From contig NZ_JACIJO010000002.1 in the NCBI RefSeq assembly GCF_014206875.1, positions 620,001 through 684,000 of the forward strand: 64,000 nucleotides of DNA, given 5' to 3'. This stretch comes from Algoriphagus iocasae (GTDB lineage: Bacteria > Bacteroidota > Bacteroidia > Cytophagales > Cyclobacteriaceae). The translations under genes and the position numbers were made by a program. The notes beneath the pieces are model-generated. The model was not told where the DNA came from. It did no database searches and was given only the letters and a program-made list of their open reading frames with translations. Numbering within the stretch: position 1 is the stretch's first letter; each line of letters begins with the position of its first letter. Positions 1,330-18,446 of this stretch are shown here, piece after piece.

Positions 1330-1635
1330 ATGATTCTTTACAACATCACATTCACAGTTTCCAATGACGTAGAAGAGGATTTTGTCCAGTGGATGAAGGA
1401 AACTCATATTCCTGATATTTTCGCAACAGGCTTGTTTTTGGAGCATAAATTTTTCCGTTTGCTCAATAGTCCTGATGACAATGCGACGAATTATAGCCTT
1501 CAGTTTTTTGCTGAAAGTACTGCCAAGTTAATCGAGTACGAAAGCCGGTTTGCACATGCCCTTCGATATGAAACCCAGGCTCGCTACGGAGAAAATGCCA
1601 TGGCATTCCGAACCCTGATGGAACTGGTAAAATAA
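1330..1635 (+). CDS. DUF4286 family protein
   Basis: A small soluble 101-aa protein matching the Bacteroidota DUF4286 family. It begins with MILYNITFTV and continues with a VQWMKETHIPDIFATG patch, a pattern that suggests a ferredoxin-like alpha/beta fold related to dimeric monooxygenase-like proteins. No catalytic residues can be assigned and the function is unknown. It is divergent from the carotenoid genes across a 111-nt gap. A TAACTTTG at 1270-1277 fits the Bacteroidota -7 consensus TAnnTTTG and could serve this gene, but I see no matching -33 element. A hairpin with a short T run follows the stop. Confidence 0.75.
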   Translation: MILYNITFTVSNDVEEDFVQWMKETHIPDIFATGLFLEHKFFRLLNSPDDNATNYSLQFFAESTAKLIEYESRFAHALRYETQARYGENAMAFRTLMELVK

Positions 1636-2046: not shown

Positions 2047-3204
2047 ATGCATAGACTGCTCCTGATTTTTAGTTTGGCTTTATTTTTTTCCTGTGGAGAG
2101 TCAAGAGACTCCAAAACTTCCGGTACCCGTAATATTCTCGAAAATCTCAGCTATTCTATCGACACAGTTGTTGTTGATCCTGGTGATGAGATTATAAATA
2201 TTAAACGTGGAGCCAGATTTTCCACCGTATCACTAGACGCGCAGAAGTACTATTACTATGACTATGATAAGACTTCAATCCATGAAATTGATTTAGAAAC
2301 CCTCAAATTGACAGATACCCACCAATTCTCCAAAGAAGGTCCTAATTCCATCGGTTTTAATCCACCTAAAATTCAGCCATTGAGCGATGAAAGATTTTTA
2401 TTTGTTTCTTCTGGTATCAATGTAGGAACCTTCAATAAGAAAGGTGAAAAGGAGAAAAGTCTAAAATTTAATTTCAGGGAAATAGAAGGACTTGAAGAAG
2501 AAGGTGAGGGTCTAATTACTTACAATGCGCAAATTTCAGAAAATGAAAAATTACTATTTGCATTAACTAGACCTGACATGGTCAGTTCTGATGTTCGATT
2601 GATCATCATAGACCCTGACACCAAAACAGGAAAAAGCATATCACTTCCTGAATTCATTCCAACCTTGAATTTTAAAATAAGACTTCAAACAGAGAAAGAA
2701 GTCTGGGGAGTTGGGGAAGGAGTTAATCTAAAAATATTGAAGGATCAGCTTTTTATATCAAGTACTACTAACTCAGATACCTATATCTATGATTATCATT
2801 CAGACTCATTGCGTTTAGTCGAATTTCCTCATCAGCTAGTCCCCGACAGAAAAATTGCAGAGGTAAAAAACAAAGTAGAGGATAAGGCAGAGTTTTATGC
2901 TGAATGGGCCAAATTCAAGTATCAAATTAGCTTTGCTGAATTTCTATGGGATAAGGAACGGCAGCAATATTTTAGGTTTGCTTATCAACTGATACCGCGT
3001 GATGATCCTAATCTGGAGGATAAATCGGAAGTTTTTCTTTTTGCCTATGACAAAGATTTAAACCTGATAGGTGAGAGTCAATTAGAAAATGTTGAATACA
3101 GATTCCAATCTCCTTTCTTCAAAGACGGCAAACTCTATTCCTATGTCAACGTCGAAGACGAGCTCGGCTTCGCAGTATTCACTTTTGATTTTGAAGAAAA
3201 ATGA
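2047..3204 (+). CDS. DUF4221-like lipoprotein, array copy 1 (type A end)
   Basis: First of 14 paralogous lipoproteins. The 385-aa product has a lipoprotein signal peptide ending FFSC with Cys16 as the lipidation site, so it is probably anchored in a membrane facing the periplasm or cell surface. Family landmarks are SIDTVVVDPGDE at 36-48, KEGPNSIG at 96-103, many short beta-like repeats suggesting a propeller, and the tail FFKDGKLYSYVNVEDELGF. The usual stop is replaced, so the product gains three residues (EEK) and its stop overlaps the next start in ATGA. Its GPNS...PPKI patch is shared only with copy 2, its closest neighbour. The family assignment comes from recall of DUF4221 proteins in related genera. 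The molecular function is unknown. Confidence 0.85.
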   Translation: MHRLLLIFSLALFFSCGESRDSKTSGTRNILENLSYSIDTVVVDPGDEIINIKRGARFSTVSLDAQKYYYYDYDKTSIHEIDLETLKLTDTHQFSKEGPNSIGFNPPKIQPLSDERFLFVSSGINVGTFNKKGEKEKSLKFNFREIEGLEEEGEGLITYNAQISENEKLLFALTRPDMVSSDVRLIIIDPDTKTGKSISLPEFIPTLNFKIRLQTEKEVWGVGEGVNLKILKDQLFISSTTNSDTYIYDYHSDSLRLVEFPHQLVPDRKIAEVKNKVEDKAEFYAEWAKFKYQISFAEFLWDKERQQYFRFAYQLIPRDDPNLEDKSEVFLFAYDKDLNLIGESQLENVEYRFQSPFFKDGKLYSYVNVEDELGFAVFTFDFEEK

Positions 3205-4472
3205 GAATTGTATATCAACTAATCTTTTTATGTATCATTTTCTCATGTCAGAAAAAGGATGAATCTAAGGTTGAGTTGAATGAACCTAAGATTGTCAGAA
3301 ATCCTATAGATACATTAATGAAGGATCCTGAAAAAGAAGATTCAATCATTAGTATAGAGGAAGAGGAAGCTCAAGAAGAAATTCAGAAACCAGAAGATCT
3401 AACCCCAACCAACTATCTAGAATACCTTTCCTTTAAAATTGACACTGTGCTCACTGATTCGAAAGGGACTCTAATTTACCTACCTCAAGGTTTAAATAAT
3501 TCTGATCTATCCCCCAATAAAAAATTCTTATTTGCTTTAAATTCAAAATCAAACAAACTCTACCAGTTTGATTTAGAACGCTTTGAATTGGTGGAATCCT
3601 ACCAATTTGAAAAAGAAGGTCCTAACAGTGTTCCACCTAAAATCTGGAATTTCCAATTGCTAGATGGACAAAAAATCGGCTTTACAGACTACCATATCGC
3701 CGGAATCTATAATTTCCAAACCCAAAAACTGTTTTCCTTTCAGTTTTCAGAAAATGATTTTTCCGATTTAATAGACACACCCACCGAAGCCAAATACGAA
3801 AGACTCCAGTTTAGCGCAGATGGAAAAGAAATTTATTTTCTACACCAGAATATTGAGGGAGAAAAAGTGTATTTGGGAATATTTGATCCCAAAATAAAGA
3901 AAGAAAAGCTGGTGGACTTAGTGGAATTTGAATTCTTGACCCGACTCCGTTTTACCCATAGTGAAGGGATAGCCCATCATATTGCTGATTTCGCAACCCT
4001 TGGACTTAAAATGGAAGCTAATCGGGCCATCATCTATTCAAAAGGTACCAGTAAAGTTTATCTGTATGATCTAGCAAGTGGTTCTTTGACTTTCAAATCT
4101 CCTAAGCATGAACTTGTTCCCAATGATCAGATCCCCCCATTTTCCAATAAATTTTCATCTATTCAAGAAGTCATCGATGCCAGTGAGTCTCTTTTGTTTC
4201 AGATTTCATACCATGACATTCTATATGATGATCAACAAGAGAAATATTTCCGCTTTGGGACGATCATGGAAAAAACCGAAAACCCAAGCCCCAATACCAA
4301 AAAAGAAGTATACCTCTTTGCTTACGATCAAAATTTCAATTTAATCGGAGAGACTCAAATCAAAGAGTTAAACAAAGTACCAGCAAATCCCTTCTTCAAA
4401 GACGGTAAACTCTATTCCTATGTCAATGTCGAAGACGAGCTCGGCTTCGCAGTATTCACTTTTGATTTTTAA
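3201..4472 (+). CDS. DUF4221-like lipoprotein, array copy 2 (longest, acidic insert)
   Basis: The longest paralogue, 423 aa. A signal peptide ends at Cys16 and is followed by about 55 residues rich in Glu, Lys and Pro before the conserved core starts at KIDTVLTD (79-86). Within that linker, IDTLMKDPEKED at 36-47 looks like a degenerate second copy of the IDTV..D motif, suggesting an internal 5' duplication. The glycine motif is altered to GPNSVPP. The tail from 4391 is nearly identical in DNA to those of copies 1, 4 and 5. Start ATG overlaps the previous stop by 4 nt; the next gene follows after the 5-nt spacer AAACC. Function unknown. Confidence 0.85.
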   Translation: MRIVYQLIFLCIIFSCQKKDESKVELNEPKIVRNPIDTLMKDPEKEDSIISIEEEEAQEEIQKPEDLTPTNYLEYLSFKIDTVLTDSKGTLIYLPQGLNNSDLSPNKKFLFALNSKSNKLYQFDLERFELVESYQFEKEGPNSVPPKIWNFQLLDGQKIGFTDYHIAGIYNFQTQKLFSFQFSENDFSDLIDTPTEAKYERLQFSADGKEIYFLHQNIEGEKVYLGIFDPKIKKEKLVDLVEFEFLTRLRFTHSEGIAHHIADFATLGLKMEANRAIIYSKGTSKVYLYDLASGSLTFKSPKHELVPNDQIPPFSNKFSSIQEVIDASESLLFQISYHDILYDDQQEKYFRFGTIMEKTENPSPNTKKEVYLFAYDQNFNLIGETQIKELNKVPANPFFKDGKLYSYVNVEDELGFAVFTFDF

Positions 4473-4477
4473 AAACC

Positions 4478-5596
4478 ATGAAAAAACTACTTCCAATTAT
4501 TCTGCTCAGCATTTGCTTGGCATGTAACAGACCAACTGAAGAATCCAGTCAGGAAGAATTTGAATTTTCTTATAGCAGTGACACTGTGATGGTGGATGCA
4601 GGAGATGACTTCATTTATCTCAGAAGAGCATTGGGAATCGCAGATTTAAGCAAGGACGAAAAACAGCTGTATAATTTCAATTTCGATGCTACAGAACTGG
4701 AAGTAATCGATTTGGAACAAATGAAACTGGTCGACCGGATAAAAATGGAAAAAGAAGGCCCTCTTGGCACAGGTTTTCCTCGATACTTGAGTATCAGTGA
4801 TGATGGAAAATTTTTCTTTGTCGGCTACACAGATATTCGTGAGTTTGATCCCTCTTTGCAAAATCAGGTCCTCTATCAATTCCGAAGTGACAAGACTATT
4901 GGCCTAGAGGAGGGAGAGACGCTAGGTCAGGAATTCCAGATTTCCCAAAATGGCCAATACATTCTGGTTCCATACGGCCCTGAAAACATGGATGAGCCCA
5001 AAACCGGAATAGCGATCCTTACGCTCAATGATATGACAGTCAAAAAAATCCCTATGAATCTGTGGCAAAGGACGCAAGACTATTTGGTAACCCTATACAT
5101 AGATGGAAAATTGCAGTCCAGATCATTTGAACAAGTCGATATATTACCAAGGAAAGAGCAGGTTTTGATCTCCTCTCACAATTTTAACGAAGTATATGTG
5201 CTGGATTTAAAGACAGATTCTATCACTCACAAAACTTACCATTCCAAGATAACCGCTGATACAAAAAAGCTTCCCGCAAAAACTACTCTAGATGCTCCGG
5301 AACAAATGCGGGATGCCTTTACACAAATGAATGAAAATGTGGAATTTGGTGGATTTTATTTCGATGAAGTCAACGAGAAATTCTTTAGATTTTCTAGAGA
5401 GCTAGATCGGAAAATCGGTGATTCAACTGTTTTTAAGGAAGTAGTCACCATTTTTGATAAAGACCTAAACCAAGTACATGAAGAAATCTTCCCCATCAAT
5501 TATTATGGGTTGAAATTTTTTAAAGAGGGAAAACTCTATTCATTTCTTAACATCGATGACGAGCTTGGCTTTGCAGTATTCACTTTTGATTTTTAA
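4478..5596 (+). CDS. DUF4221-like lipoprotein, array copy 3 (chimera: type B body, type A end)
   Basis: A 372-aa lipoprotein with Cys16 (LLSICLAC). The N-terminal region (DTVMVDAGDDFIYL) and the segment FRFSRELDRKIGDSTVFKE match copies 8-11 rather than its neighbours, yet the last codons (DELGFAVFTFDF and stop) are those of copies 1-7. The glycine motif reads GPLGTG instead of GPNGxG. This mixture is best explained by recombination or gene conversion that replaced the 3' end. Spacer to the next start is ATAAA. No catalytic motif is visible. Confidence 0.85.
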   Translation: MKKLLPIILLSICLACNRPTEESSQEEFEFSYSSDTVMVDAGDDFIYLRRALGIADLSKDEKQLYNFNFDATELEVIDLEQMKLVDRIKMEKEGPLGTGFPRYLSISDDGKFFFVGYTDIREFDPSLQNQVLYQFRSDKTIGLEEGETLGQEFQISQNGQYILVPYGPENMDEPKTGIAILTLNDMTVKKIPMNLWQRTQDYLVTLYIDGKLQSRSFEQVDILPRKEQVLISSHNFNEVYVLDLKTDSITHKTYHSKITADTKKLPAKTTLDAPEQMRDAFTQMNENVEFGGFYFDEVNEKFFRFSRELDRKIGDSTVFKEVVTIFDKDLNQVHEEIFPINYYGLKFFKEGKLYSFLNIDDELGFAVFTFDF

Positions 5597-5601
5597 ATAA
5601 A

Positions 5602-6744
5602 ATGAAAAAACTATCCTATTTCTTGTTTCTAGCGCTGTTTTCATGCGGAGGTAATGAAAATTCTGAGTCTTCCAATTCTAATATTCTGGAAGATCTAACC
5701 TTCTCCGTGGATACAGTAATGATAGATCCAGGGGAGGAATTACTCGTTATTTCCAGCGGGTACCAACTGAAAAGCTCCAGCAGTTTTTCAGAGGATAATC
5801 GCTTTCTATACATTTTCAATCACCAAGATCACGTTATTGCCAAAGTGGATCTAAATGAGCTAAAATTGCGTGACTTTTTCAGCTTCGAAAAGGAAGGTCC
5901 CAATGGAACTGGTCCTTATGTTCAAAACCAACAAGTATTACCTGAAGAGCAGTTTTTAATAACAGGGTACCAATTGGCAGGTGTTTTTGAGCGGACAGGC
6001 AACAAGGTTCAGAATTTTAATTTGAACACAGAAGAATTCAGCGGTTTGGATGAAAACACACCCTTTGGGAATCAGTTGATTCTGGCTTCTGGTGCAAATT
6101 GGCTATTTTCCCTGTCTGGCTTATTCAACCAAGGGGGCAAAGACTTGGTCAAGCTCAGCCCTTCAGAAAAGACTGGAAAGCTGATTGACTTATCGGGATT
6201 GGATATTGCCGACAACTATTTCGTGGCATTGCATAGCGATCAGGGAAGTATGTTTTCGGTTCCCCAATTTAACCTTCAAGAAATCAACGGTAAACTCTAC
6301 ATCACTACGGAAGTCACCTCATCCTTGTATCAATATGATTACCAAAATGATTTGCTTCACCTAGTCACTTTTGACCATCAGATTGTCCCACCTGCCAAGA
6401 CTGGAAAATTGAAAAAGGAAGTCACCAGCAGGGACGAGTTTAATGATGAAATGCTAAAGTCTTCCTCCCAAGTTAGTTTTGAGAAATTGCTATGGGATGA
6501 GAAAACGAATCGTTTTTTTCGATTGGGTAGAAAAGTGCTTCTAGATGACCCCAGCGATGCCAACTCATATAGTTTCGAATATTACCTGTTTGTCTACGAT
6601 AAGGAATTAAATCTTCTGGGCGAAAAGTATTTGGATGGAGTCACTGACCAACTTGCTTTCTATTTTCTTAAAGAGGGCAAACTCTGGTCCTACGTCAACG
6701 TCGAAGATGAGCTCGGCTTCGCAGTATTCACTTTTGATTTTTAA
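5602..6744 (+). CDS. DUF4221-like lipoprotein, array copy 4 (type A end)
   Basis: A 380-aa lipoprotein with lipidation Cys15 (ALFSC) followed by a short Asn/Ser/Glu linker. The core opens with DLTFSVDTVMIDPGEE at about 31-46 and has a canonical EKEGPNGTG. The tail reads KLWSYVNVEDELGF, with Trp in place of the Tyr of copies 1, 2 and 7, a change shared with copy 5. Its GPNGTG-Tyr patch resembles copy 7. The spacer to copy 5 is AAACC, the same as between copies 2 and 3. Function not recognised. Confidence 0.85.
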   Translation: MKKLSYFLFLALFSCGGNENSESSNSNILEDLTFSVDTVMIDPGEELLVISSGYQLKSSSSFSEDNRFLYIFNHQDHVIAKVDLNELKLRDFFSFEKEGPNGTGPYVQNQQVLPEEQFLITGYQLAGVFERTGNKVQNFNLNTEEFSGLDENTPFGNQLILASGANWLFSLSGLFNQGGKDLVKLSPSEKTGKLIDLSGLDIADNYFVALHSDQGSMFSVPQFNLQEINGKLYITTEVTSSLYQYDYQNDLLHLVTFDHQIVPPAKTGKLKKEVTSRDEFNDEMLKSSSQVSFEKLLWDEKTNRFFRLGRKVLLDDPSDANSYSFEYYLFVYDKELNLLGEKYLDGVTDQLAFYFLKEGKLWSYVNVEDELGFAVFTFDF

Positions 6745-6749
6745 AAACC

Positions 6750-7877
6750 ATGAAAACAATTTTTTACTCAATAATTACCCTAGTCCTTTTTTCCTGTCAC
6801 GAAAAAACAAAAACAGCAAACATGCTGGAAGGCTTGAAATTGACGGTTGACACAGTCATGGTAGACCCAGGAGATTCTTTTTTTAATTTAAAATATGGGT
6901 TAGACCTTTCTGATATTTCCGAAAGCGGTAAGATTCTCATTTTTATGGAGAGGGATAATAAAAATTTATACCAAATTGATCTGGAGACATTAAAAATACT
7001 TAGCAAAACTCAGTTCGAAACTGAAGGCCCAAACGGTATTGGTCCATTTGTAACAACAATGTCGCGAGTATTTGATGATAATCTATACTTCGGCACCTAT
7101 AAATATGGAGGCATATTCAATCCTGAGGGAATTAAAATTGATCCTAAAACAATACAAACTGATCAAATCAAAGGTAAAAATGGAGAGTCAGAAATGAGTT
7201 TTCACTATTCTCCAGTGCTATCTAATAATGGGAAATTTGCTTATTCCCTTCCCAGAAATGAAGATAAGGACACATTTAGCTTTTCTTGGTTTGATTTTGA
7301 AACTAACCAAGGTGAAGTTACTGCTTTAACGAAGTTTGACTCTCTTACGCAATTTACAATCCAAGTAATTGGCGGAAGTAGAAAATTTAAATTAATGGAA
7401 TCCGCTTTTGTCCAAGCCTATGGCGAAAATGTGGTCATTAGAACTCCAGGCTATAGTGATATCTACCTCTTCAATAGCGGTACAAAGCATTTATCGCATA
7501 AAGCTTTTCCTCACCAAATTGTACCCACCCGAAGAGATCATAATTTCAACGGAAAAATTGAATCAATGCAAGAAATTAGTCTAGCCCGCGCCAGACTTTT
7601 TGAAGATATTCTTTTTGAAGAGTTCTTATTTGACGATGAGAGCAAATATTTTTTTCGATTCGGGGCTAGGAAAAAACCCAAACTAGAAAACTCTAAATCC
7701 GAAGAGAGTGAAGTATTTCTATTTATCTACGATGAAGATTTTAATCTCTTGGGAGAAACAAAAATAGATGATTTAAAAAAAGTACCGGAATACCCTTTCT
7801 TCAAAGACGGCAAACTCTGGTCCTATGTCAATGTAGAGGACGAGCTCGGCTTTGCAGTATTCACTTTTGATTTTTAA
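6750..7877 (+). CDS. DUF4221-like lipoprotein, array copy 5 (type A end)
   Basis: A 375-aa lipoprotein with Cys16 (LVLFSC) and a very short linker before LKLTVDTVMVDPGD. The glycine motif is ETEGPNGIG. The segment before the end (DLKKVPEYPFFKDGKLWSY) is close to that of copy 2 (ELNKVPANPFFKDGKLYSY), so the shared 3' block extends further upstream between these two. The body is more A+T- and Lys-rich than its neighbours. Spacer to copy 6 is ATAAA. Confidence 0.85.
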   Translation: MKTIFYSIITLVLFSCHEKTKTANMLEGLKLTVDTVMVDPGDSFFNLKYGLDLSDISESGKILIFMERDNKNLYQIDLETLKILSKTQFETEGPNGIGPFVTTMSRVFDDNLYFGTYKYGGIFNPEGIKIDPKTIQTDQIKGKNGESEMSFHYSPVLSNNGKFAYSLPRNEDKDTFSFSWFDFETNQGEVTALTKFDSLTQFTIQVIGGSRKFKLMESAFVQAYGENVVIRTPGYSDIYLFNSGTKHLSHKAFPHQIVPTRRDHNFNGKIESMQEISLARARLFEDILFEEFLFDDESKYFFRFGARKKPKLENSKSEESEVFLFIYDEDFNLLGETKIDDLKKVPEYPFFKDGKLWSYVNVEDELGFAVFTFDF

Positions 7878-7882
7878 ATAAA

Positions 7883-9031
7883 ATGAAAAAAATCCTCCCA
7901 TTTCTAAGTCTTATACTTTGCGCAGCCTGCGGTGAAAAAGGCAGTTCTGAAGACGCAAACTCAGATAATATCCTAGAGAATCTAACTTTTACAGTGGACA
8001 CGGTAGTCGTAGATCCAGGGGAGGAAATCATTGATTTATCGAATCATCTTAGATTGGCAGATATCAGTAAGGATCGAAAAAAACTCTTTTTGTTTACTGA
8101 AAGTGACAACAAACTTTCGGTCATCAACCTCGATCAATTAAATCTGGAAAAAAAGATACCCTATGAAAAAGAAGGGCCTAATGGAGTAGGAAGTTTCCTG
8201 TGGAATTTGGATCTCATTAGTGATGATAGATTCTATTTGATGACATTCAATACTGCTGCGATTTTTGATTTTAAAGGCATTAAACATGAGACAATTAATC
8301 TCGAAGAAGAGGACATCCAAGGAATCAAAGATAAAACCCTCCAAAACAACCGCTTGAAGGTAACCGAAGATCTAAAATGGTACTACACTGTGCCAGGTTC
8401 TGATTTCGATCAAGGTGATCAGTCTGCTGAATTGGCCATTATCAACAGAGAAAACAAAGAAGGGAAACTGTTCCCTTTGCCAGCCTTGGACAAAACACAC
8501 GAATATAAAGTTATTCTTACTGATGGGCCAATGATGCAAGTCTATGTGGAGGAATATTTTCTATCCGAGTTCTTCGGTAAGTTCTTTGTCACCTCCTCAG
8601 CGACAAGTGATATCTATACGATTGATCCAAAAAATGACTCACTTGTACTCCATTCTTTTGATTTAAAACATACTCCAAAAGAGAAAACTGAGCCTCCAAA
8701 AAGGAAAGAATTCACTGAAAGAGAAGCCTGGAGGGAAGAAATCAATAAAATTCATACACAAATCACATTCGGAGGATTGCTTTGGGATGAAAGCAGAAAG
8801 AATTTTTTCCGCTTTGCCAATATCCTCATCCCAAGTCTTTCTGAAGATATTCCTTCCAAAAGACAAGTTTTCCTTTTAGCCTATGATGAAAATCTAACTC
8901 TTATCGGCGAGACAGAAATAGAGGACTTATATGAGTCCCCCGAATTTCCTTTCTTCAAAAATGGCAAGCTCTACTCCTTTGTCAACATCGATGACGAGCT
9001 CGGATTCGCAGTATTCACTTTTGATTTTTAA
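7883..9031 (+). CDS. DUF4221-like lipoprotein, array copy 6 (type A end)
   Basis: A 382-aa lipoprotein with the signal peptide ending LCAAC (Cys16). Its first 50 residues, including CGEKGSSED and ILENLTFTVDTVVVDPGEE, closely resemble copy 7, so these two share both ends while their middles differ. The glycine motif is EKEGPNGVG. The tail carries SFVNIDDELGF, intermediate between the VNVEDE form of type A and the NIDDE form of type B. Spacer to copy 7 is ACACC. Confidence 0.85.
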   Translation: MKKILPFLSLILCAACGEKGSSEDANSDNILENLTFTVDTVVVDPGEEIIDLSNHLRLADISKDRKKLFLFTESDNKLSVINLDQLNLEKKIPYEKEGPNGVGSFLWNLDLISDDRFYLMTFNTAAIFDFKGIKHETINLEEEDIQGIKDKTLQNNRLKVTEDLKWYYTVPGSDFDQGDQSAELAIINRENKEGKLFPLPALDKTHEYKVILTDGPMMQVYVEEYFLSEFFGKFFVTSSATSDIYTIDPKNDSLVLHSFDLKHTPKEKTEPPKRKEFTEREAWREEINKIHTQITFGGLLWDESRKNFFRFANILIPSLSEDIPSKRQVFLLAYDENLTLIGETEIEDLYESPEFPFFKNGKLYSFVNIDDELGFAVFTFDF

Positions 9032-9036
9032 ACACC

Positions 9037-10158
9037 ATGAAAAAACTATTTCCTTTTTTTATTCTTATTCTCTTTGCTGCCTGCAGGGAAAAAGGCAGTT
9101 CTGAAGAAGTCGAATCTGGGAATCTTCTTGAAAATCTTTCCTATTCTGTGGATACAGTTATCATAGACTCAGGAGAGGAACTTTTTAATCTCTCTGGATT
9201 GATTCATTTGGAATATCAGAATCCAAACCTGCTGTATTTCTTTGATGAGAAACAATCCAAAATTCAAAAAATCAATCTTGACAACAGAGCCCTTTTGTCA
9301 ACATTTCGTTTTGAAAAAGAAGGTCCTAATGGCACCGGAACCTACCTATCAAACTTTCAATCATTGAAGAATGATCATTTTCTGATCGTATCTGATGAAT
9401 CTCAGGGGATTTTCAAATCTGATGGGACGAAGAAATTAGATCTTCGACTGTCAAATTTTTCTGATAATGAGAGTGAAACTTCTGAGGAAATTCAGTTGCC
9501 ATTTGAAATGCAATTATCTCCTGATGGAAAATTTGCCTATGCTCTAGTGGGAGATTTCTTTGAAGGGATTTGGAATTTTGTCCGAGTTAACCTTAAAGAA
9601 AAATCAATAAAAACATGGGAAATGCCAGAACTGCTTTCCTCCAGAAACTACACCATTATGCTGATGTCAGATGATGGCTTTGATTTACGGGCTGAGGATA
9701 TTCATCTAGATATAATAAATGAAAAGGTAATGATAACAATAGGCAATACCAGCTCTATCTATCATTATGACCCGGCAACAGACAGTTTACAATTTTTCGA
9801 TTTCCCTCATGTGCTCACTGCCAAAGAAAAGACAGGAAGATATCCATTGGAAGTGAATTCAAAAGAGGAATACGAGGAAATCGTAAAAGAGATAAATTCG
9901 GAAATTACCTATGACAAATTTGTTTGGGATAGCAGTAGAAGCAATTTTTTTAGAATTGGAAGAAAGACAATAAGAGATTCCAAAAAGTCTGAAGTATTCC
10001 TTTATGCCTACAACAAAAACCTAGACCTAATCGGTGAGCAAAAAATAGAGGGTCTGGATCAAACTCCAAAGAACTATTTCTTCAAAGACGGAAAGCTCTA
10101 CTCATACGTTAATGTCGAAGACGAGCTCGGATTTGCAGTATTCACTTTTGATTTTTAG
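9037..10158 (+). CDS. DUF4221-like lipoprotein, array copy 7 (last type A end)
   Basis: A 373-aa lipoprotein with Cys16 (ILFAAC), opening almost like copy 6 (EKGSSEEVESGNLLENLSYS). It has EKEGPNGTG and the conserved FFRIGRKT segment before the tail. It is the last gene with the GCAGTATTCACTTTTGAT 3' block. It ends with TAG instead of TAA and the spacer to copy 8 is 6 nt. It therefore marks the border between the two halves of the array. Confidence 0.85.
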   Translation: MKKLFPFFILILFAACREKGSSEEVESGNLLENLSYSVDTVIIDSGEELFNLSGLIHLEYQNPNLLYFFDEKQSKIQKINLDNRALLSTFRFEKEGPNGTGTYLSNFQSLKNDHFLIVSDESQGIFKSDGTKKLDLRLSNFSDNESETSEEIQLPFEMQLSPDGKFAYALVGDFFEGIWNFVRVNLKEKSIKTWEMPELLSSRNYTIMLMSDDGFDLRAEDIHLDIINEKVMITIGNTSSIYHYDPATDSLQFFDFPHVLTAKEKTGRYPLEVNSKEEYEEIVKEINSEITYDKFVWDSSRSNFFRIGRKTIRDSKKSEVFLYAYNKNLDLIGEQKIEGLDQTPKNYFFKDGKLYSYVNVEDELGFAVFTFDF

Positions 10159-10164
10159 ACAATT

Positions 10165-11322
10165 ATGAAAAATTCCAGATACCTTTTACCCCTTTTTCTG
10201 GCAGTAATGGCCAGTTGCACTTCTAAAGGAAGTTCTGATAGAATAGAAAAGAATGAAGCTTTCTCTTATACCATCGATACGGTGATGGTAGATGCAGGAG
10301 ATCAATTTATTTACCTGAATAATTTGCTGACAAGTTCGGGGCAATCGCCCGATGGTAATTACCTCTATAATTTCAACAGAAACCAGGCCACTCTTGAATT
10401 AATCAATTTAGAAACATTGAGTTTGGAGAAGATCATCCCATATGAAAAAGAGGGGCCAAATGGCATTGGGTCAGGAATGATTTCAAAAGTGGTTGACATC
10501 GGCTCCGATAAGTTGATTTTCTCTGACAGCTACCAGGTATCCACAGTTGATATGAATGGTAAAAAAATAGCTGGATTCAGTTATGCAAAGCAGGAATTTG
10601 AAGGTGAAAAACTTCCGGAAGATAAACGTATTCGGCTAGAGGAAACATTTTCCAAAGATGGAAAAACGCTTGTGGCCCTATATGGAGGTCTAAAAATAGA
10701 CGATACTGCAGATGGTCTGGCAATTTTTGACCTGGAAAATAAGCAGGTACGATATCATCCCATAGACTTATTTAAAGAGCTTGAGAAATTCCAGACTGTT
10801 TTTTATTTCGAAGGAGTTCATCCAATTCAGATGTATATGGCAGATATTAAACTACAACTAAAAGGTGATACCTTGATATACTCCAATACTGCCCAAAACA
10901 AAGTCTATTTCTTTCAACTCAGTACGAATAATCTCAATTCTAAATCGTTCTCAAGTAAATATACTTCCCAAGAAGCTGAAGGCAATTATCCCAAACGATC
11001 TGATAATGAGGAAGAATTTAAAGAGATAACTAAAGTAAAGGAGAAAGAAGTGAATTATGGAAGGTTCTTCTTTGATGATGTCAATGAGGTTTATTGGAGG
11101 TTTAGTAAAGAAATGGATAAAATGAATGGAGATTCTATTGTATTCAAAACTGTCTTGACCGCATTCGATTTCAATTTCAATCAACTTCATGAAGAATTAC
11201 TTCCTTCAAACTTTATTCTTCCTCAAAAATATTTCAGCAGAAAGGGTATGATTTACACTTTTTTGAATATCGACGATGAACTAGGTTTCGTAAGACTCAA
11301 ACCAACCATCACTTATGAGTAA
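10165..11322 (+). CDS. DUF4221-like lipoprotein, array copy 8 (first type B end)
   Basis: A 385-aa lipoprotein with Cys18 (FLAVMASC). It opens the second half of the array, whose members end in a NIDDELxFVRLKPxI motif instead of ELGFAVFTFDF. It has EKEGPNGIGSG and the type B signature YWRFSKEMDKMNGDSIVFKT. The stop overlaps the start of copy 9 by 8 nt in ATGAGTAA. Its signal peptide (LPLFLAVMASC) is very like that of copy 10, so 5' ends are also shared between non-adjacent copies. Confidence 0.85.
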   Translation: MKNSRYLLPLFLAVMASCTSKGSSDRIEKNEAFSYTIDTVMVDAGDQFIYLNNLLTSSGQSPDGNYLYNFNRNQATLELINLETLSLEKIIPYEKEGPNGIGSGMISKVVDIGSDKLIFSDSYQVSTVDMNGKKIAGFSYAKQEFEGEKLPEDKRIRLEETFSKDGKTLVALYGGLKIDDTADGLAIFDLENKQVRYHPIDLFKELEKFQTVFYFEGVHPIQMYMADIKLQLKGDTLIYSNTAQNKVYFFQLSTNNLNSKSFSSKYTSQEAEGNYPKRSDNEEEFKEITKVKEKEVNYGRFFFDDVNEVYWRFSKEMDKMNGDSIVFKTVLTAFDFNFNQLHEELLPSNFILPQKYFSRKGMIYTFLNIDDELGFVRLKPTITYE

Positions 11323-12466
11323 ATACTTTTGTTTCCTTTTTGCATTGCTATTAGTCGGGTGTAATTCCGAAAAAACCTCAGAAAACACTGACTCTGATGC
11401 GTTTGATTTTTCCTACACCATTGATACCGTAATAGTGGATTCCAAAGAGGAAATAATATTCCTCAATTGGGATTTAGAAACTTCAGCGATCTCTCTGGAC
11501 GGAAAATATCTTTATAATTATGACCATAGTAATACAGCTATTCAATTCATAGATCTAGAAAATCTGGTTTTTGAAAAATCGCTGCCTATAGAGAAGGAAG
11601 GACCAAATGGACTAGGGGGTAATCGGGTATATCACATTTATGCAGCTGAAAATGATCATCTCATCCTCACTGATAGTTACCATGTGGCAATGATAGACCT
11701 GGATGGAAACAAGTCTATGAATTTTCAATACGATAAGTTTGATTTCAAAGGGAAAAAGCTACCAGAAACCATGCGGATTACATCTCAGGAATCTGTTTCT
11801 CATGATGGAAGTACTCTAATTACCACTTACGGGGATCTGGAAATGAAGAATGCTCCATCAGGACTTGCGTTTTTTGAGCTTGAAAAAAGGGTGTTTAGTC
11901 ATATACCCATTGCTATTTTCTCAGAATTACAGCCCTACCTATTCAGATACTACCTTGATGGAAATTTGGCAGGAATGAACCAAGCTGATACCTATCTCAT
12001 CATGAAAAACGATTCGTTGATCATTACGAGTAGTGCATTTAACAAAATTAATTTCTATCAATTTCCCACAGAATCAATCACTACCAAAACCTTCCAAAGT
12101 AAATTAACCAGTAATAGCGCATCTAGTAATTATCCAAAAGAAACTCATTCTCGCCAAGAATTATTGGAGGTTGGGAAAACCATAGAAAATGAAGTCGATT
12201 TTGGCCCGTTATTATTTGATGAAGAAAATCAGGTTTACTGGAGATTCAGCAAAGAAATGGACAGAATGATTGAAGATTCCATTGTTTTCAAGACTGTATT
12301 GATGGCTTTTGATTCCAATTTTGATCATATGCAGGAAAAATTACTTTCCTCAGACTTTCAGCTTCCAAGGAAATATTTTATCAGAAATGGTATGATCTAC
12401 ACTTTTTTGAATATCGACGATGAACTGGCTTTTGTCAGACTTAAACCAACCATTAGCTATGAATAA
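11315..12466 (+). CDS. DUF4221-like lipoprotein, array copy 9 (type B end)
   Basis: A 383-aa lipoprotein with Cys16 (LLLVGC). It has EKEGPNGLGG and the type B block YWRFSKEMDRMIEDSIVFKT, nearly the same as copy 8, then YTFLNIDDELAFVRLKP. It is the closest relative of copy 8 along the whole length. Its final codons ATGAATAA contain the start of copy 10, which implies re-initiation by the same ribosomes. Confidence 0.85.
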   Translation: MSKYFCFLFALLLVGCNSEKTSENTDSDAFDFSYTIDTVIVDSKEEIIFLNWDLETSAISLDGKYLYNYDHSNTAIQFIDLENLVFEKSLPIEKEGPNGLGGNRVYHIYAAENDHLILTDSYHVAMIDLDGNKSMNFQYDKFDFKGKKLPETMRITSQESVSHDGSTLITTYGDLEMKNAPSGLAFFELEKRVFSHIPIAIFSELQPYLFRYYLDGNLAGMNQADTYLIMKNDSLIITSSAFNKINFYQFPTESITTKTFQSKLTSNSASSNYPKETHSRQELLEVGKTIENEVDFGPLLFDEENQVYWRFSKEMDRMIEDSIVFKTVLMAFDSNFDHMQEKLLSSDFQLPRKYFIRNGMIYTFLNIDDELAFVRLKPTISYE

Positions 12467-13604
12467 ATTCAAATTAATTATTCCCGTTTTTCTGGCAGTT
12501 TTGGCCAGTTGCAGTAGTAAAGAAAATACTGCCGAAAATTCATTGGAATTCTCCTACAGCATCGATACAGTGATGGTTGATTCCAAAGACCATTTCTTTT
12601 TCCTAAACTGGAGTCTGGGAATTTCAGATTTAACCCAAGATAAAAAGCTCCTCTATAACCTTAATCCTGAATCTCTTCTTTTAGAGGTTATTGATATGGA
12701 TGCATTGGCACTAAAAGAAACCGTTCAACTGGAAAAAGAAGGTCCAAATGGCGTAGGTGGTGGATATATCTCCAAACTTCAGGTACTAGGAAATGGGAAC
12801 CTGATGCTCTTTGACTTCAATAAAATTGTGGAAATAAGTCCTAAAGGCGAGTTGGTGAAAAAATACGAATTCGATAAAAATACCTTGAGCGGATATGAAT
12901 TTGGGGAAACAGATGTGGTCAGTTACATGGGGACATTTTCAATGGATGGAAAAACCTATGTTGGAGAATTGGAAGATGAAAGTTTCAGAAAACCTGCCAA
13001 AGGACTGGCTGTGATTGATCTGGAAAAGATGGAATTAAATTTCGTCCCAACAGATGCCATTTCAAAGCTAGATGAATTTCGAATCATTTTTGAAATGAAT
13101 GGAAATGCCATGATGTCTACGGGAGAAACCACTTATATGAAGTTTATCAATGGGAAGTTGGTCCTCGATAATACTGCTTTTAATGAGGTCTATATCTATG
13201 ATATTGAGACGGATAGTTTACTTCATAAATCTTTTGTAGCAAATCTCACCGGTAATGAAAGGATCAAAAACTTTCCTACACTAGTGGAGACGCAAGAAGA
13301 ACTTTTTGAAACCTCCAATGAGAAAATGAAGCAGGTTAAATTTGGACCGATGATTCTACAAAAGGAAGATAGGCTCATTTGGAGAATAAGTACAGATTTG
13401 GATCGTATGATTGCAGATTCTGTAGTGACGAAGGATGTGGTGACTTTTTTCGATACGGACTATACCATGCTGAAAGAACAACCTTTAGAAAACTACATCA
13501 CATCACCTACTCGGTTTTTCAAAGATGGAATGTTGTATAGCTTTATGAATTTAGATGATGAATTGGCCTTTGTCAGACTAAAACCAAGTATTACTTATGA
13601 ATAA
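12459..13604 (+). CDS. DUF4221-like lipoprotein, array copy 10 (type B end)
   Basis: A 381-aa lipoprotein with Cys18 (FLAVLASC). I place the start at the ATG of the ATGAATAA overlap, because this gives a clean signal peptide; an earlier in-frame start at 12420 would bury it behind 13 residues copied from the previous gene's end. It has EKEGPNGVGGG and a diverged type B block (WRISTDLDRMIADSVVTKD). The tail reads SFMNLDDELAFVRLKP. Confidence 0.85.
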   Translation: MNKFKLIIPVFLAVLASCSSKENTAENSLEFSYSIDTVMVDSKDHFFFLNWSLGISDLTQDKKLLYNLNPESLLLEVIDMDALALKETVQLEKEGPNGVGGGYISKLQVLGNGNLMLFDFNKIVEISPKGELVKKYEFDKNTLSGYEFGETDVVSYMGTFSMDGKTYVGELEDESFRKPAKGLAVIDLEKMELNFVPTDAISKLDEFRIIFEMNGNAMMSTGETTYMKFINGKLVLDNTAFNEVYIYDIETDSLLHKSFVANLTGNERIKNFPTLVETQEELFETSNEKMKQVKFGPMILQKEDRLIWRISTDLDRMIADSVVTKDVVTFFDTDYTMLKEQPLENYITSPTRFFKDGMLYSFMNLDDELAFVRLKPSITYE

Positions 13605-14733
13605 ATACATTTTTCTTTTACTCACAGTATTATCTTCTTGTAATCGACCCTCTGAGGAAGTGGAAGCACCCACTTTCTCCATTTCCATAGATACTGTAAA
13701 AGTTGATTCTAGAGGAGAAATCCTTTTTTTAAATTACTTTCTTGATATTTCGGCTGTAGATCCATCCCAGAAATTCCTGTATAATATGAACATGATGGAA
13801 AGTGTTCTTGAGAAAATAAATCTAGAAACACTCAGCTTGGATACCCTGATCCAGCTGGATCGAGAAGGTCCAAATGGGATTGGTTCACCTTTCAAAATTA
13901 TTGCACTTGAAAATGGAGGTTTTGTGTTTTCCAATAATTACACACTCCGACACATGGATGCTAATTGGCAAGTAACCAAACAAACTACACTAGCAAGAAA
14001 ACCCTATATTATGGACCTTCTTCCTGAAGGTAAAAGCATCAGCGTTCAGTCCAATGGAATCTCAATGGATGGAAAATACTTGGCTGGAATTTACGAAACT
14101 TCAAAAATGTCTGATAAACCTGATGGGATCATCTGGATAGATCTTGAAAAAGAAACGGGAAAGATAATACCGACGGCAGCGCTGGATTTCATTAGGGATA
14201 ACAACTTGACCTTGGAGTTGGATGGAAAAAAAAGAGGAGGCTTTAGCACCGCCGTGTTTTTCGAGCCTAGCGAAGATAAAATCCTTTTCTCTACCACCTC
14301 TAAAAACATGTTGATGGTCTACGATATTCCCACAGATTCTCTCATCACAAAAACTTATGAAAGCAAGCTTACTAGCAATGAGCAAAAACCGGGAGAAGCA
14401 AAAACCATCACGGACATCGACGAATTCAATAAGCTCAGGCAGGAGAACCTAAAAAAAGTCACTTTTGGGCCTTGGAATTTAGACCATAAAACGGGCTACC
14501 GCTGGAGATTTTCGAAGGAACTTGATCATACCGTCGGGGAAGATAGTCTTGTCTTCAAAACGGTAATCACGGCAATTGACAAGAATTTTGAACAAATCGG
14601 GGAATCGCAACTCCCTTCAGATTTTATATTCCCAAATAACTTCAGGATACATGATGGGATGATTTACACCTTTCTGAACATGGACGACGAGCTGGCCTTT
14701 GTCAGACTAAAACCAAGCATTAGGCATGAATAA
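13597..14733 (+). CDS. DUF4221-like lipoprotein, array copy 11 (type B end)
   Basis: A 378-aa lipoprotein with Cys15 (TVLSSC) and post-Cys NRPSEE, similar to copy 3. The glycine motif is DREGPNGIGSP. It carries WRFSKELDHTVGEDSLVFKT and ends MDDELAFVRLKPSIRHE. It is joined to both neighbours by 8-nt ATGAATAA overlaps. Nothing points to enzymatic activity. Confidence 0.85.
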   Translation: MNKYIFLLLTVLSSCNRPSEEVEAPTFSISIDTVKVDSRGEILFLNYFLDISAVDPSQKFLYNMNMMESVLEKINLETLSLDTLIQLDREGPNGIGSPFKIIALENGGFVFSNNYTLRHMDANWQVTKQTTLARKPYIMDLLPEGKSISVQSNGISMDGKYLAGIYETSKMSDKPDGIIWIDLEKETGKIIPTAALDFIRDNNLTLELDGKKRGGFSTAVFFEPSEDKILFSTTSKNMLMVYDIPTDSLITKTYESKLTSNEQKPGEAKTITDIDEFNKLRQENLKKVTFGPWNLDHKTGYRWRFSKELDHTVGEDSLVFKTVITAIDKNFEQIGESQLPSDFIFPNNFRIHDGMIYTFLNMDDELAFVRLKPSIRHE

Positions 14734-15868
14734 GTTTTATCTGTTATTCTTAGTTTTCACTTTTTTATCCTGTAAAACTGATAAATCCTCCCAAGAATTC
14801 AATACCGAAGAATTTGATTTCAGCTATAAATTGGATACTCTTCAAATAGACTCAAATGGTGAATTCTTTTTTTTAAACAATGGATTAGGGGGATCCACAG
14901 TTACACCATCAGGGTTGATTTATACATTCAACAGGCCTTTGAATAGGCTCGATGTCGTGGATCTTACAAAAAGGGAACTGGTAGATACGATTCCGCTTGA
15001 GGTGGAAGGGCCAAATGGAATAGGAGGATTAGGAATAAATCAAATCCAATTAAGTGATTCAGGAGACTTTTTCTTTTCATCTTTTACAGGATTGCGACAA
15101 TTTGGGCCAGATGGAGAATTGAAAAATTGGTTCAATTGGGATACTGAAGAGAGAATTCAAAAACAATTCGAAAATAAAGGACTGATCAGTTTCGAAGGGA
15201 TCGTCTCTCCAGAAGGTTCTACATTTTATGGTACATATTCGGCAGACGGAAGAAGTGGGTCCAGTATGGCTGACGGTTTGGCAATTATTGATTTAAGAAA
15301 CTTAGAATTAAAAACTATAGAGATTCCAAAACTCGCTGCTCTAAAGGAATATAGAATTGAACTGGAAATCGATGGAATGAAGACAGTCTCCTCTGATAAA
15401 TTTGATTTATTGCTAAATGACAATAAAATCATCTTCACCCAATCATCTGTAAATTCTATTTCCGTTTATGATCTGAAAAAGGACACATTATTAAACTTTG
15501 ACTACCAAACGAACCTCTTACCAGCAAAAAAACCAGGAAACTTCCCAAGAAAAGTGGGCACAATGGAGGCGTTTGGTGAGGCTTCCAATGAGAGAAGCAA
15601 AGAGCCTTTATTTGGAGAGATTTTATTTGATTCCAAGAACAATCTATACTACAGGGTAAGCTATCTCAAAGACCCAAAACCAGATGGGACAATTGGATGG
15701 AATGGAGTCTTTTCTGTTTTTGACAAAGAATTTAACCTGGTCCATGAGGAAGATGGGTTAGGAAGGTATACTGGTAAAAAATTTATTATTGATGGGACAG
15801 TTTATCGATTTATAAATCTTGATGATGAATTGGCATTTGAGACACTAACTCCAAGCATCGAAAAATGA
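14726..15868 (+). CDS. DUF4221-like lipoprotein, array copy 12 (diverged type B end)
   Basis: A 380-aa lipoprotein with Cys16 (FTFLSC). Its glycine motif is EVEGPNGIGGLG, and the type B block is replaced by YYRVSYLKDPKPDGTIGW. The tail NLDDELAFETLTPSIEK has lost the VRLKP motif. Its stop overlaps the copy 13 start by 4 nt (ATGA), unlike the 8-nt overlaps before it. It belongs to a more diverged tail of the array. Confidence 0.85.
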   Translation: MNKFYLLFLVFTFLSCKTDKSSQEFNTEEFDFSYKLDTLQIDSNGEFFFLNNGLGGSTVTPSGLIYTFNRPLNRLDVVDLTKRELVDTIPLEVEGPNGIGGLGINQIQLSDSGDFFFSSFTGLRQFGPDGELKNWFNWDTEERIQKQFENKGLISFEGIVSPEGSTFYGTYSADGRSGSSMADGLAIIDLRNLELKTIEIPKLAALKEYRIELEIDGMKTVSSDKFDLLLNDNKIIFTQSSVNSISVYDLKKDTLLNFDYQTNLLPAKKPGNFPRKVGTMEAFGEASNERSKEPLFGEILFDSKNNLYYRVSYLKDPKPDGTIGWNGVFSVFDKEFNLVHEEDGLGRYTGKKFIIDGTVYRFINLDDELAFETLTPSIEK

Positions 15869-17043
15869 AACGACTACTTTCTCTTCTTTTCCTATCCGTG
15901 ATTATCGGTTGCTCATCGAAAAAGGAAAAGGTGGAAGTAGTGCCCAAAACAATTACCAACAATACATTTGATTACACCTTAGATACAGTTTTTATTGATT
16001 CCGGAGATTCCTTACCCTACCTCGATATGAATTTGGTTTCTTCGGATTATGTATCCTCCGAAGGGTTATTATATAATTTGGATCCTGGAACAGGCCGGGT
16101 AGATGTCTATGATATTGATGCTCAAAAGCTGAAAAAACGCATCCAGTTTGAGGTGAATGGCCCAAACGGAATCCGAAAGTATTTCCCCACCGGGATCAAA
16201 AAAACCAATAATGGTGACATGATCATCAGGGACTATTTCGAGGTTCTTAGAATGGGTGCAGACACCAAATTAAAAGATTCTTATCTTCTTCAAAATCACA
16301 AACTAAGTGGGGATAATCTCGGAGAAAGCCAAGAGATCAATGGCATGGGTGAAATCGCAGAAGATGGGTCCTATTTCGCCAGTTATTATGGTTATTACCC
16401 CTCCAATGGACGTATTCTCGGTTTAGCAAGAGTGGATCTAACTTCCAAATCCCTGAAATTGATCCCCGTGAGTTTTAGAGATCAATCGGAAAGGTTTTTG
16501 ATCCGATGGGAATATCGAGAGGGAAAAACGATGGTGGTTCCAGAATACAAATTTCTAACCCTCGACGGTCCAAACTTCATCGCTACCAATTCCTACAAAA
16601 ATGAACTTTGGTACTATGATGCTACAAAAGATTCTCTGTATCACAGAGTTTATCAAAGTAGTCTGATATCAAATGTCAAGCGTGGAAATTATCGAAAAAA
16701 GGTTGGGTCAATGCGGGATTTAAATCTTGCCAAAAAAAGGAAATTTCAGGAGGTAGTCTTTGGCCCCATAATCAAGGATCCTAAAAATAAACGCTTCTAC
16801 CGCTATAGCCGAGAGGTCCAGCAAGAACCTGAGGAAGGTGGTAGATATTTTAGGTTTGTTTTATCTGTGTTTGATTCAAATCTTAAGATTATCCATGAGC
16901 AAAAACTGGATTTATCAGCTTTTATACCTGGAGAATATTTCGTCAATAAGACCTTTGTCCACAAAGGAATGTTGTATACTTTTTTGAATTTTAGAAATCA
17001 AATTGCGTTTGTACGACTCCGTCCAAGGTTCGAAAATGAATAG
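15865..17043 (+). CDS. DUF4221-like lipoprotein, array copy 13 (basic, diverged)
   Basis: A 392-aa lipoprotein with Cys16 (SVIIGC) followed by a Lys/Glu-rich linker. It is visibly richer in Arg and Lys than the other copies. The glycine motif degenerates to NGPNGIRKY, and the tail reads FLNFRNQIAFVRLRP, with the DDEL acidic patch lost. The last codons (ATGAATAG) contain the start of copy 14. It is clearly homologous to its neighbours but under weaker constraint at the sites conserved elsewhere. Confidence 0.82.
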   Translation: MKRLLSLLFLSVIIGCSSKKEKVEVVPKTITNNTFDYTLDTVFIDSGDSLPYLDMNLVSSDYVSSEGLLYNLDPGTGRVDVYDIDAQKLKKRIQFEVNGPNGIRKYFPTGIKKTNNGDMIIRDYFEVLRMGADTKLKDSYLLQNHKLSGDNLGESQEINGMGEIAEDGSYFASYYGYYPSNGRILGLARVDLTSKSLKLIPVSFRDQSERFLIRWEYREGKTMVVPEYKFLTLDGPNFIATNSYKNELWYYDATKDSLYHRVYQSSLISNVKRGNYRKKVGSMRDLNLAKKRKFQEVVFGPIIKDPKNKRFYRYSREVQQEPEEGGRYFRFVLSVFDSNLKIIHEQKLDLSAFIPGEYFVNKTFVHKGMLYTFLNFRNQIAFVRLRPRFENE

Positions 17044-18136
17044 AATTTTATTGTTCTTCGTTTTGATAGCTATAGTTGCTTGCGAGGAAAATGGTAGAAA
17101 AGCAGAAAATCCAATCACTTTAGAATTCGAATTTTCTTATGATACGGTAACCATTAATTCAGGAGAACATTTATTTAACCTAGGTCATGGTATACCAAAA
17201 GTTAAGCTTTCCCAAGATGAACAATACCTATATTTTTTTGATGATTATAACCTTGCCTTAGACAAAATAGATCTGGAAAAAAAAGAATTTGTACTCACTA
17301 TTCCATTTGAAAAAGAAGGTCCAAAAGGGATAGGTGCCACATTTGATTACATCCCTGACGAAAATGGAAATATCCAGCTATTAACACCTAAAAGGTTATT
17401 TTCTATTGACGAAAAAGGAGTTTTAAATAGTAATTTTCCATCCTACCATTCAATTTTCGAAATGGGTTTTGAAAGCCGATTTTTTGAAGGAGCAAGAATA
17501 TCTCCTGACAGCCAATTTCTTTTTGGTCTTACAACTTCAACAAATGGTAACCAATCCCTTGCTTGGGTAAATCTAAAAGACACTGTTTTCCATGTATCTC
17601 CTTTGGATAGCATGGCATATAGAAAATCTCTTGAAATTGATCTGGGGAGATTAACAATAAGCGGGATGCAAGAAGCAGAATATTTCGAACATCATATTTT
17701 AGTTTATCATGATGATGGAATTGACTTTTATGCCCTTGATCTAAATTCAAAGAGTTTGGAATTTCATGATTTCGAACCAACCAAAGTTCCGAAAAGAAAG
17801 GATGGAAAATATCCAAAATCAGGTTCTACTGCGGATCTAACAAAGATTTTAGAAATGGAAGGACTTGAAATTAATTATTCCCGAATAGTTTATGACTCAT
17901 CTTATAAACGATACTATCGAATAGCAAGTAAGAAAAGAGAGAACCAAGTCCGAGCTGGAATACCCAATCAATTCTTGCTTGTTTTTTCTGATGATTTTAA
18001 ACTAATCCATGAAGAAGATCTCTCAAATTTACCTTTCAGTATTACCACCTATTTTGTCCGAGAAGGAAAGTTTTGGGTTTTTAATAAAGAAACAGAAGAA
18101 CTTGAGTTTTTTGTCTTTGACTTTAACTTCAATTAG
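17036..18136 (+). CDS. DUF4221-like lipoprotein, array copy 14 (terminal, most divergent end)
   Basis: A 366-aa lipoprotein with Cys16 (LIAIVAC). The ATG in the 8-nt overlap is chosen because it directly opens the signal peptide; an in-frame codon at 17003 would add 11 residues. It keeps a DTVTINSGEHLFNL version of the core motif and EKEGPKGIG, but its C-terminus (EELEFFVFDFNFN) is neither type A nor type B, although FVFDFNF faintly echoes the AVFTFDF end. No terminator is visible behind it; transcription would run into the repeat region. Confidence 0.82.
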   Translation: MNRILLFFVLIAIVACEENGRKAENPITLEFEFSYDTVTINSGEHLFNLGHGIPKVKLSQDEQYLYFFDDYNLALDKIDLEKKEFVLTIPFEKEGPKGIGATFDYIPDENGNIQLLTPKRLFSIDEKGVLNSNFPSYHSIFEMGFESRFFEGARISPDSQFLFGLTTSTNGNQSLAWVNLKDTVFHVSPLDSMAYRKSLEIDLGRLTISGMQEAEYFEHHILVYHDDGIDFYALDLNSKSLEFHDFEPTKVPKRKDGKYPKSGSTADLTKILEMEGLEINYSRIVYDSSYKRYYRIASKKRENQVRAGIPNQFLLVFSDDFKLIHEEDLSNLPFSITTYFVREGKFWVFNKETEELEFFVFDFNFN

Positions 18137-18176
18137 ATAAATTATGGATAGGAGTTATTGCCAATTCTGCAATGAT

Positions 18177-18446
18177 CTGCGAACCTTTTCTGCGGACATC
18201 TGCGGGAGGATTCTTTTCCGTTGATTTTTTCCCGCTGATTCTCGCCGATGAAATACCGCAGATTTTCACTGAATTAATTATCATTCTGCACCGATCTGCG
18301 GATTTTCTGCGGACATCTGGGGGAGGATATTTTTCCACTGATTATTTCCCGCTGATCCTCGCTGAAGTCAAACGCAGATTTCCGCTGATAAAATTCTGTT
18401 TCTGTGCGAATCTGCGAACCTTTTCTGCAGACATCTGCGGGATCAG
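18177..18446. repeat. Tandem non-coding repeat, 2.3 units of about 117 nt
   Basis: Units start with CTGCGAACC or CTGCGGATT at 18177, 18296 and 18412, giving periods of 119 and 116 nt. Each opens with TTTTCTGCGGACATCTGCGGG-type text, contains TTTCCCGCTGAT..TCGC(C/T)GA in the middle and has inverted CGCAGATT motifs that could pair with AATCTGCG. A long frame crosses the units, but its product is just the repeat read three times. With the following short dispersed motifs, this occupies the 437-nt gene-free gap 18137-18573. Confidence 0.8.

Follow-up and report, generated by a model that had tools for sequence, protein, structure and literature searches.

How does a bacterial chromosome come to carry fourteen related lipoprotein genes side by side, and what might their products do? 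The question is raised by a 64,000-nucleotide stretch of Algoriphagus iocasae DNA (assembly GCF_014206875.1, contig NZ_JACIJO010000002.1, positions 620,001 to 684,000; hereafter the window), in which 14 open reading frames (ORFs) on the + strand fill positions 2047-18136 with no gene of another type between them. As an initial annotation made from the sequence alone had claimed, these are paralogous lipoprotein genes: every product belongs to the DUF4221 family and has a lipobox. The array is more than a chance grouping, for another 30 genomes have arrays of this family, usually in the corresponding position.

We propose that the locus is a chromosomal cassette array in which one cassette would correspond to one lipid-anchored DUF4221 beta-propeller, and that each Algoriphagus species would draw a different sample, usually at one site, from a pool that spans the genus and comprises at least 28 old subfamilies. 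Cassettes would be gained, lost and occasionally passed between species through homologous recombination in near-identical gene ends – a 3′ tail of about 81 nt together with the start of the next gene – presumably by the general homologous machinery, and many tails would have been reshuffled by gene conversion. The products are presumably located in the outer membrane or periplasm, and each may bind a different molecule (a nutrient, glycan or partner), such that the array would set the binding repertoire of the species. As a whole, this reading, a recombining cassette array from which each species derives its own set of envelope binding propellers, seems to us slightly better than an even bet. 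The cassette dynamics, with their turnover and tail reshuffling, are probable; the binding role is a tentative suggestion, with less than an even chance of being right. The data support the family, fold and lipoprotein signal, the usual site, the patchy sampling and gene order, the uncoupling of tails, and one young cassette.

Protein family, subfamilies and turnover

All 14 proteins match the Pfam profile DUF4221 (PF13970) above its cut-off of 23.4 bits, scoring 134-255 bits along almost all of its 311 positions, which bears out the initial assignment. The only other match in a Pfam-A scan to E 0.01 was a sub-cut-off one to Cytochrom_D1 for gene 4; NCBIfam gave sub-cut-off matches only for the six array proteins scanned, and a PDB sequence search with gene 6 returned no match up to E 1. 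The proteins have the lengths originally given (366-423 aa), and their identity to gene 1 is 18-37%. By sequence pattern, a lipobox cysteine is present in 14 of 14 proteins in the window and in 265 of 269 over 31 genomes plus C8, an 11.6-kb contig of the same genome; acidic residues are common after this cysteine, a feature that falls short of proving surface exposure. Both previously noted motifs, (I/V)DTV..D and EGPNG, are present, with D39-T40 and G98-P99 invariant and V41, D44 and E97 nearly so; the second reads EGPLG in gene 3, NGPNG in gene 13 and EGPKG in gene 14.

Gene 6 is predicted to form a beta-propeller, with a predicted local distance difference test score (pLDDT) of 86.1 and a predicted template modelling score (pTM) of 0.84, from a 14-row alignment; it is the one member of the 14 that was modelled. 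The best PDB match of the model is 3S9J, a solved DUF4221 protein (Foldseek E 3.8e-16; VIA Z 22.9, root-mean-square deviation 3.8 Å over 325 residues). The propeller suggested earlier for these proteins is thus backed by a confident model of one member.

DUF4221 matches occur in 40 of the 59 genus genomes, including 36 of the 39 of good quality, and in 15 of 296 genomes of a phylum sample, 13 of them above cut-off. Arrays were collected from 30 genomes among the genus-search matches listed, in which genomes with weak matches are under-represented, plus one genome (G250) of the phylum sample. Each of these 31 genomes has 2-22 full-length genes in its array, all on a single strand and usually at the same site; the counts are minima, as several arrays end at contig or stretch ends (e.g. 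G030, G032 and G051). In a tree built from gene bodies only, with 269 members (267 without contig C8; members shorter than 340 aa left out), just 5 of 267 genes have a nearest neighbour from their own genome, and the array is therefore not a recent 14-fold duplication. The tree contains 28 clusters with at least three members, each in at least three genomes, a number that hinges on the chosen tree cut.

Gene order is largely shared. Subfamily K occurs in eight of the fetched arrays and always closes them, subfamily A opens 15 of 31, and reciprocal-best pairs (>40% identity) stand in the same order in 1298 of 1520 comparisons, although the pair counts between genomes are not independent. Membership is patchy. 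A. pacificus, the nearest named relative found (79% for gene 6), has clear orthologues (64-90%) for 4 of 16 genes, corresponding to window genes 1, 6, 10 and 13, and its flanking DNA is about 78% identical to the window flanks. Among 42 orthologue pairs from nine close species pairs, the ratio of non-synonymous to synonymous substitution rates (dN/dS) has a median of 0.12 (range 0.06-0.78) versus 0.03 for 45 flanking-gene pairs; array orthologues evolve faster than the flanks yet stay constrained.

These patterns bear on two functions that had been suggested for the array. A multi-subunit assembly is unlikely: the number and membership of the genes vary even among close relatives, which disfavours a fixed complex. 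Diversification stands in the sense that there are many distinct old subfamilies, but orthologues are under the constraint just described. A further 18 array matches are shorter than 330 aa (in L011, L013, L016, L019, L020, L038, L040, L041 and L043) and are mostly adjoining pieces that resemble split members, which makes continuing gene loss likely.

The 3′ tail

The 81-nt tail of gene 1 (3115..3195, + strand; matched by the tail query over 81 of 81 positions at 95%) recurs near the 3′ ends of genes 2-7; in all, nine places in its own genome carry the tail DNA, seven in the array and two on contig C8. The C-terminal residues of genes 1-7 are nearly alike (consensus FFKDGKLYSYVNVEDELGFAVFTFDF), and so is the DNA. 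Such a type A-like tail, spanning the last ~80 nt, is found on nearly half of the genes. By amino-acid pattern there are 82 type A genes in 18 genomes and 28 genes of a second variant in 15, and together 120 genes in 30 genomes.

Tail codons depart strongly from general usage: in the 82 genes, CTC accounts for 0.90 of leucine codons versus 0.13, GGC for 0.76 of glycine codons versus 0.18, and GTC for 0.85 of valine codons versus 0.22. A stretch of about 33 nt, mostly of rare codons, is kept at the nucleotide level across the genus. Where residues are identical between genomes, codon identity reaches 0.74 in the block from -26 to -15 and 0.84 in the final six codons, but 0.45 in the part that separates these blocks, compared with 0.46 for flanking orthologues (averaged over 89 genome pairs); the whole tail is above the flanks in 87 of 89. 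The second variant retains the first conserved block, and in 57 genes of other genera the codon effect is weaker. With up to three mismatches, the 33-nt pattern is present in 34 of 59 genus genomes and its reversed control in none. In the first set of stretches, all 107 of 107 matches fall within DUF4221 genes on the coding strand, with none outside.

Several ordinary causes of this conservation were considered and rejected. Codon optimisation does not account for it, as seven highly expressed genes use CTC, GTC and GGC at 0.01, 0.04 and 0.08. The context of neighbouring residues raises the codon expectation at some positions (TTC to 0.65, TAT to 0.80) and fails to explain the tail codons at the 11 of 26 positions for which it was computed; two control segments, the EGPNG motif and the type B tail, are near expectation. 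Constraint alone is also inadequate: synonymous divergence (dS) of close pairs is 0.38-0.52 in residue windows 346-382 and 0.27-0.49 elsewhere. RNA structure in the tail is near expectation in the 82 genes (mean z of 0.05 when the tail is taken by itself and of -0.33 to 0.39 in two test variants), with a mean z of -0.66 in the 28 genes of the second variant.

The tails are uncoupled from gene bodies and homogenised within genomes. Among the 120 genes, likeness of the tail middle is 0.574 within genomes versus 0.430 between them, a difference not reached in any of 300 permutations. The corresponding values are 0.442 and 0.439 for the EGPNG control and 0.424 and 0.403 for the DTV control; the latter difference, small as it is, was likewise unmatched in 300 permutations, so part of the within-genome excess reflects genome codon usage. 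Among 30 orthologues whose bodies are 75-85% identical, the excess over the non-orthologue background is 0.42 in the segment immediately preceding the tail, 0.16 in EGPNG, 0.09 in DTV and 0.10 in the last codons; in the tail core and tail middle it is 0.01 and 0.02. In the 13 closest pairs, codon identity is 0.88 for the body, 0.87 for the tail core and 0.63 for the tail middle, which would fit replacement of some 60% of these tails after the species diverged, together with extra constraint on the core.

One cassette, shared by genomes G025 and G051, is far younger than its surroundings, with a dS of 0.005 versus 0.51 for three flanking genes. It is preceded by two non-orthologous genes with tails matching at 36-38 of 40 positions; the near-identity sets in at the junction that follows them and stops about 75 nt into the next gene. 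A suspected hybrid gene in G023 was unconvincing in close alignment.

Several observations weigh against the cassette reading. One of the G025/G051 partners is a metagenome bin, and the transferred gene ends in a type-B-like tail, which leaves the upstream border of the transfer as the only one in a type A tail. Turnover is not clearly faster in tail-bearing genes, of which 45 of 111 are kept versus 71 of 138 others, and the tail-window dS of close orthologues is not lowered. A link between a tail and the cassette that follows it was sought, with an excess of 0.001 (n=149), and a simple model of one cassette with its leading tail therefore fails. Ligand binding, moreover, is argued entirely from the predicted fold, the anchoring and the family size.

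A stronger version of the proposal would make the ~33-nt in-frame stretch a dedicated handle for DNA exchange and the locus an integron-like exchange platform for protein cassettes, which we regard as rather unlikely; it is equally doubtful that, as this version would have it, the gene 3′ ends are conserved for recombination and not for protein or RNA. The array differs from integron cassettes, which have a recombination site after the ORF, in that its conserved element forms part of the coding end, ahead of the stop codon.

Array layout, chromosomal site and related loci

The 14 genes all lie on the + strand. Those with type A tails are gene 1 (2047..3204), which adds a short C-terminal extension, gene 2 (3201..4472), in which an acidic insert of some 40 residues separates the lipobox from the domain, gene 3 (4478..5596), gene 4 (5602..6744), gene 5 (6750..7877), gene 6 (7883..9031) and gene 7 (9037..10158). 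An extension like that of gene 2 also occurs in G018 (L011, 13649). Type B tails (FVRLKP in gene 8) are found on gene 8 (10165..11322), gene 9 (11315..12466), gene 10 (12459..13604) and gene 11 (13597..14733), and a tail of another type on gene 12 (14726..15868). Gene 13 (15865..17043) is the one whose A. pacificus orthologue is 90% identical, and gene 14 (17036..18136) belongs to subfamily K. The starts of genes 10 and 14 were revised from 12420 and 17003 to ATG codons chosen on lipobox grounds. Of the 13 junctions obtained with these starts, six are gaps, five of them 5 nt and one 6 nt long, and seven are overlaps of 4 or 8 nt, in keeping with the close spacing reported initially; this spacing fits an operon, and the genes may be co-transcribed. 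Just 3′ of the array, at 18175-18442, a short repeat of non-coding appearance occurs three times, about 117 nt apart.

On the 5′ side, a DUF4286 gene (1330..1635, + strand) is the usual neighbour, in 24 of 31 genomes, and is preceded by carotenoid genes where the stretch is long enough. The seven genomes without it include two cut by a contig or stretch end, one in which the array directly follows a carotenoid gene, and four with another neighbour. By eye, a small transposase-like ORF lies between the DUF4286 gene and the array in L009, L010 and L022, and a TspO-like ORF at the 5′ edge, after the DUF4286 gene, of ten other arrays. On the 3′ side, a gene of the Gly_transporter family (PF03458; 18574..19176, - strand) comes next, or a few genes further on, in 18 of 31 genomes; among the remaining 13, another common gene is found in seven and neither was seen in six. 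In other genera, five stretches (L102, L103, L105, L106 and L110) have 5-8 same-strand DUF4221 genes grouped together, and none of seven Algoriphagus flank markers was found at the other-genera loci, except one marker in L097.

The genome contains 24 DUF4221 matches: the 14 of the array, two on contig C8, and eight elsewhere, two of which are parts of one broken gene. The first gene of the C8 pair matches array gene 1 over 231 nt (86.6%), which take in the region upstream and the beginning of the gene. Contig C8 (L029) otherwise carries mostly unassigned small genes, one DUF4304 gene and duplicated small ORFs (those at 4590 and 9119 are identical), and ends, by eye, in an IS110-like transposase fragment. 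At L032 (7843-12401), also in this genome, two DUF4221 genes each precede a short-chain dehydrogenase-like ORF that, by eye, is the same in both places, as a full or a partial copy, an arrangement such as might be left after segment duplication.

Alternative explanations and known systems

Old duplications at the root of the genus are certain. Ordinary local tandem duplication and divergence within the lineage, with the common tail a remnant of copying, would explain why the genes share strand, family and tight spacing and why their tails are alike, but very few genes have their nearest relative in the same genome, which disfavours it as a recent event; the tails are also alike whatever the relationship of the bodies, unlike a remnant. 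We consider this explanation very improbable. A little more credible, though still improbable, is that the tail nucleotides are kept as a coding-strand signal through which the next gene is expressed, whether by translation restart, by mRNA processing or as a promoter. The tail lies 5-6 nt from the next start at window genes 2-7, and its two conserved blocks flank a freely varying one, as such a signal might. The core is nevertheless kept in four cases without a further intact DUF4221 gene downstream (0.85, 0.97, 1.0 and 1.0, for comparison with a mean of 0.93 in 114 genes with a close neighbour), RNA structure is not in excess, type B junctions are equally tight yet have no type A tail, and no tail stands upstream of the first gene.

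DUF4304 is a family found near toxin immunity genes. Its presence on contig C8 beside the second DUF4221 pair, together with the patchy sampling of the pool, would suit a defence repertoire of immunity, decoy or receptor-variation factors directed at phages or competitors. The orthologues show constraint and no arms-race signal, however; by eye no toxin was noticed beside six non-array loci of the same genome, PADLOC gave no match for the six of 14 array proteins searched, and gene 6 is unmatched in plasmid or phage records, so we give a defence role as little credence as local duplication. A phage or plasmid vector was rejected as well, the 33-nt pattern occurring in no viral contig and gene 6 being without phage or plasmid match.

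Same-site arrays of up to 22 DUF4221 genes should lend themselves to removal in one piece and to rebuilding one gene at a time. Should the array be a swappable repertoire, comparing species of known cassette content would offer a route from subfamily to ligand. The nucleotide-level conservation of a coding tail is odd in itself, and allows the idea of a coding end preserved for recombination to be put to the test.

Among proteins of known structure, 3S9J (BVU_1028) has the same Pfam family and fold as gene 6, with only 12% identity. The BtuG2-type surface lipoprotein 8PTF, also a lipid-anchored Bacteroidota propeller, matches the gene 6 model by Foldseek (E 3.7e-7), although the template modelling score (TM-score) is only 0.35-0.39; by analogy, it may serve as a possible model for surface ligand capture, in its case of vitamin B12. 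A BtuG2-type transporter was not recognised beside the array in a Pfam scan that covered five flanking genes. A literature search, partly by title, found DUF4221 and BVU_1028 unmentioned and no report of such Algoriphagus arrays.

Two lipoprotein arrays are close parallels in organisation, and by Pfam-A scans the array proteins lie outside both families. The Staphylococcus aureus lpl cluster of the nuSa-alpha island is described as a tandem series of paralogous lipoprotein genes, variable in number, at a fixed place in the chromosome, with a highly conserved stretch in otherwise variable genes that was proposed to permit shuffling and duplication (PMC4470592). The tandem arrangement, variable number and shared stretch are common to both systems, whereas the lpl protein family is unrelated, its conserved stretch is intragenic, between 5′ and 3′ variable parts and not at the 3′ end, and its diversity is that of one species and not of a genus-wide pool. 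The Borrelia PFam54 genes of lp54 form a single head-to-tail array of 6-11 lipoprotein genes with constant ends, a variable middle and pseudogenes, and keep many divergent variants at one locus, with recent within-species duplications reported (PMC11389397). They resemble the Algoriphagus arrays in their constant ends and variable middle, and differ in being plasmid-borne, of an unrelated family and linked in function to the host, and in their recent duplications, which contrast with the rarity of same-genome nearest neighbours (5 of 267) in Algoriphagus. The array shares with recombining tandem lipoprotein arrays a head-to-tail order, a variable membership and a common exchange segment; its DUF4221 family, its genus-wide pool and its nucleotide-level tail seem to be new.

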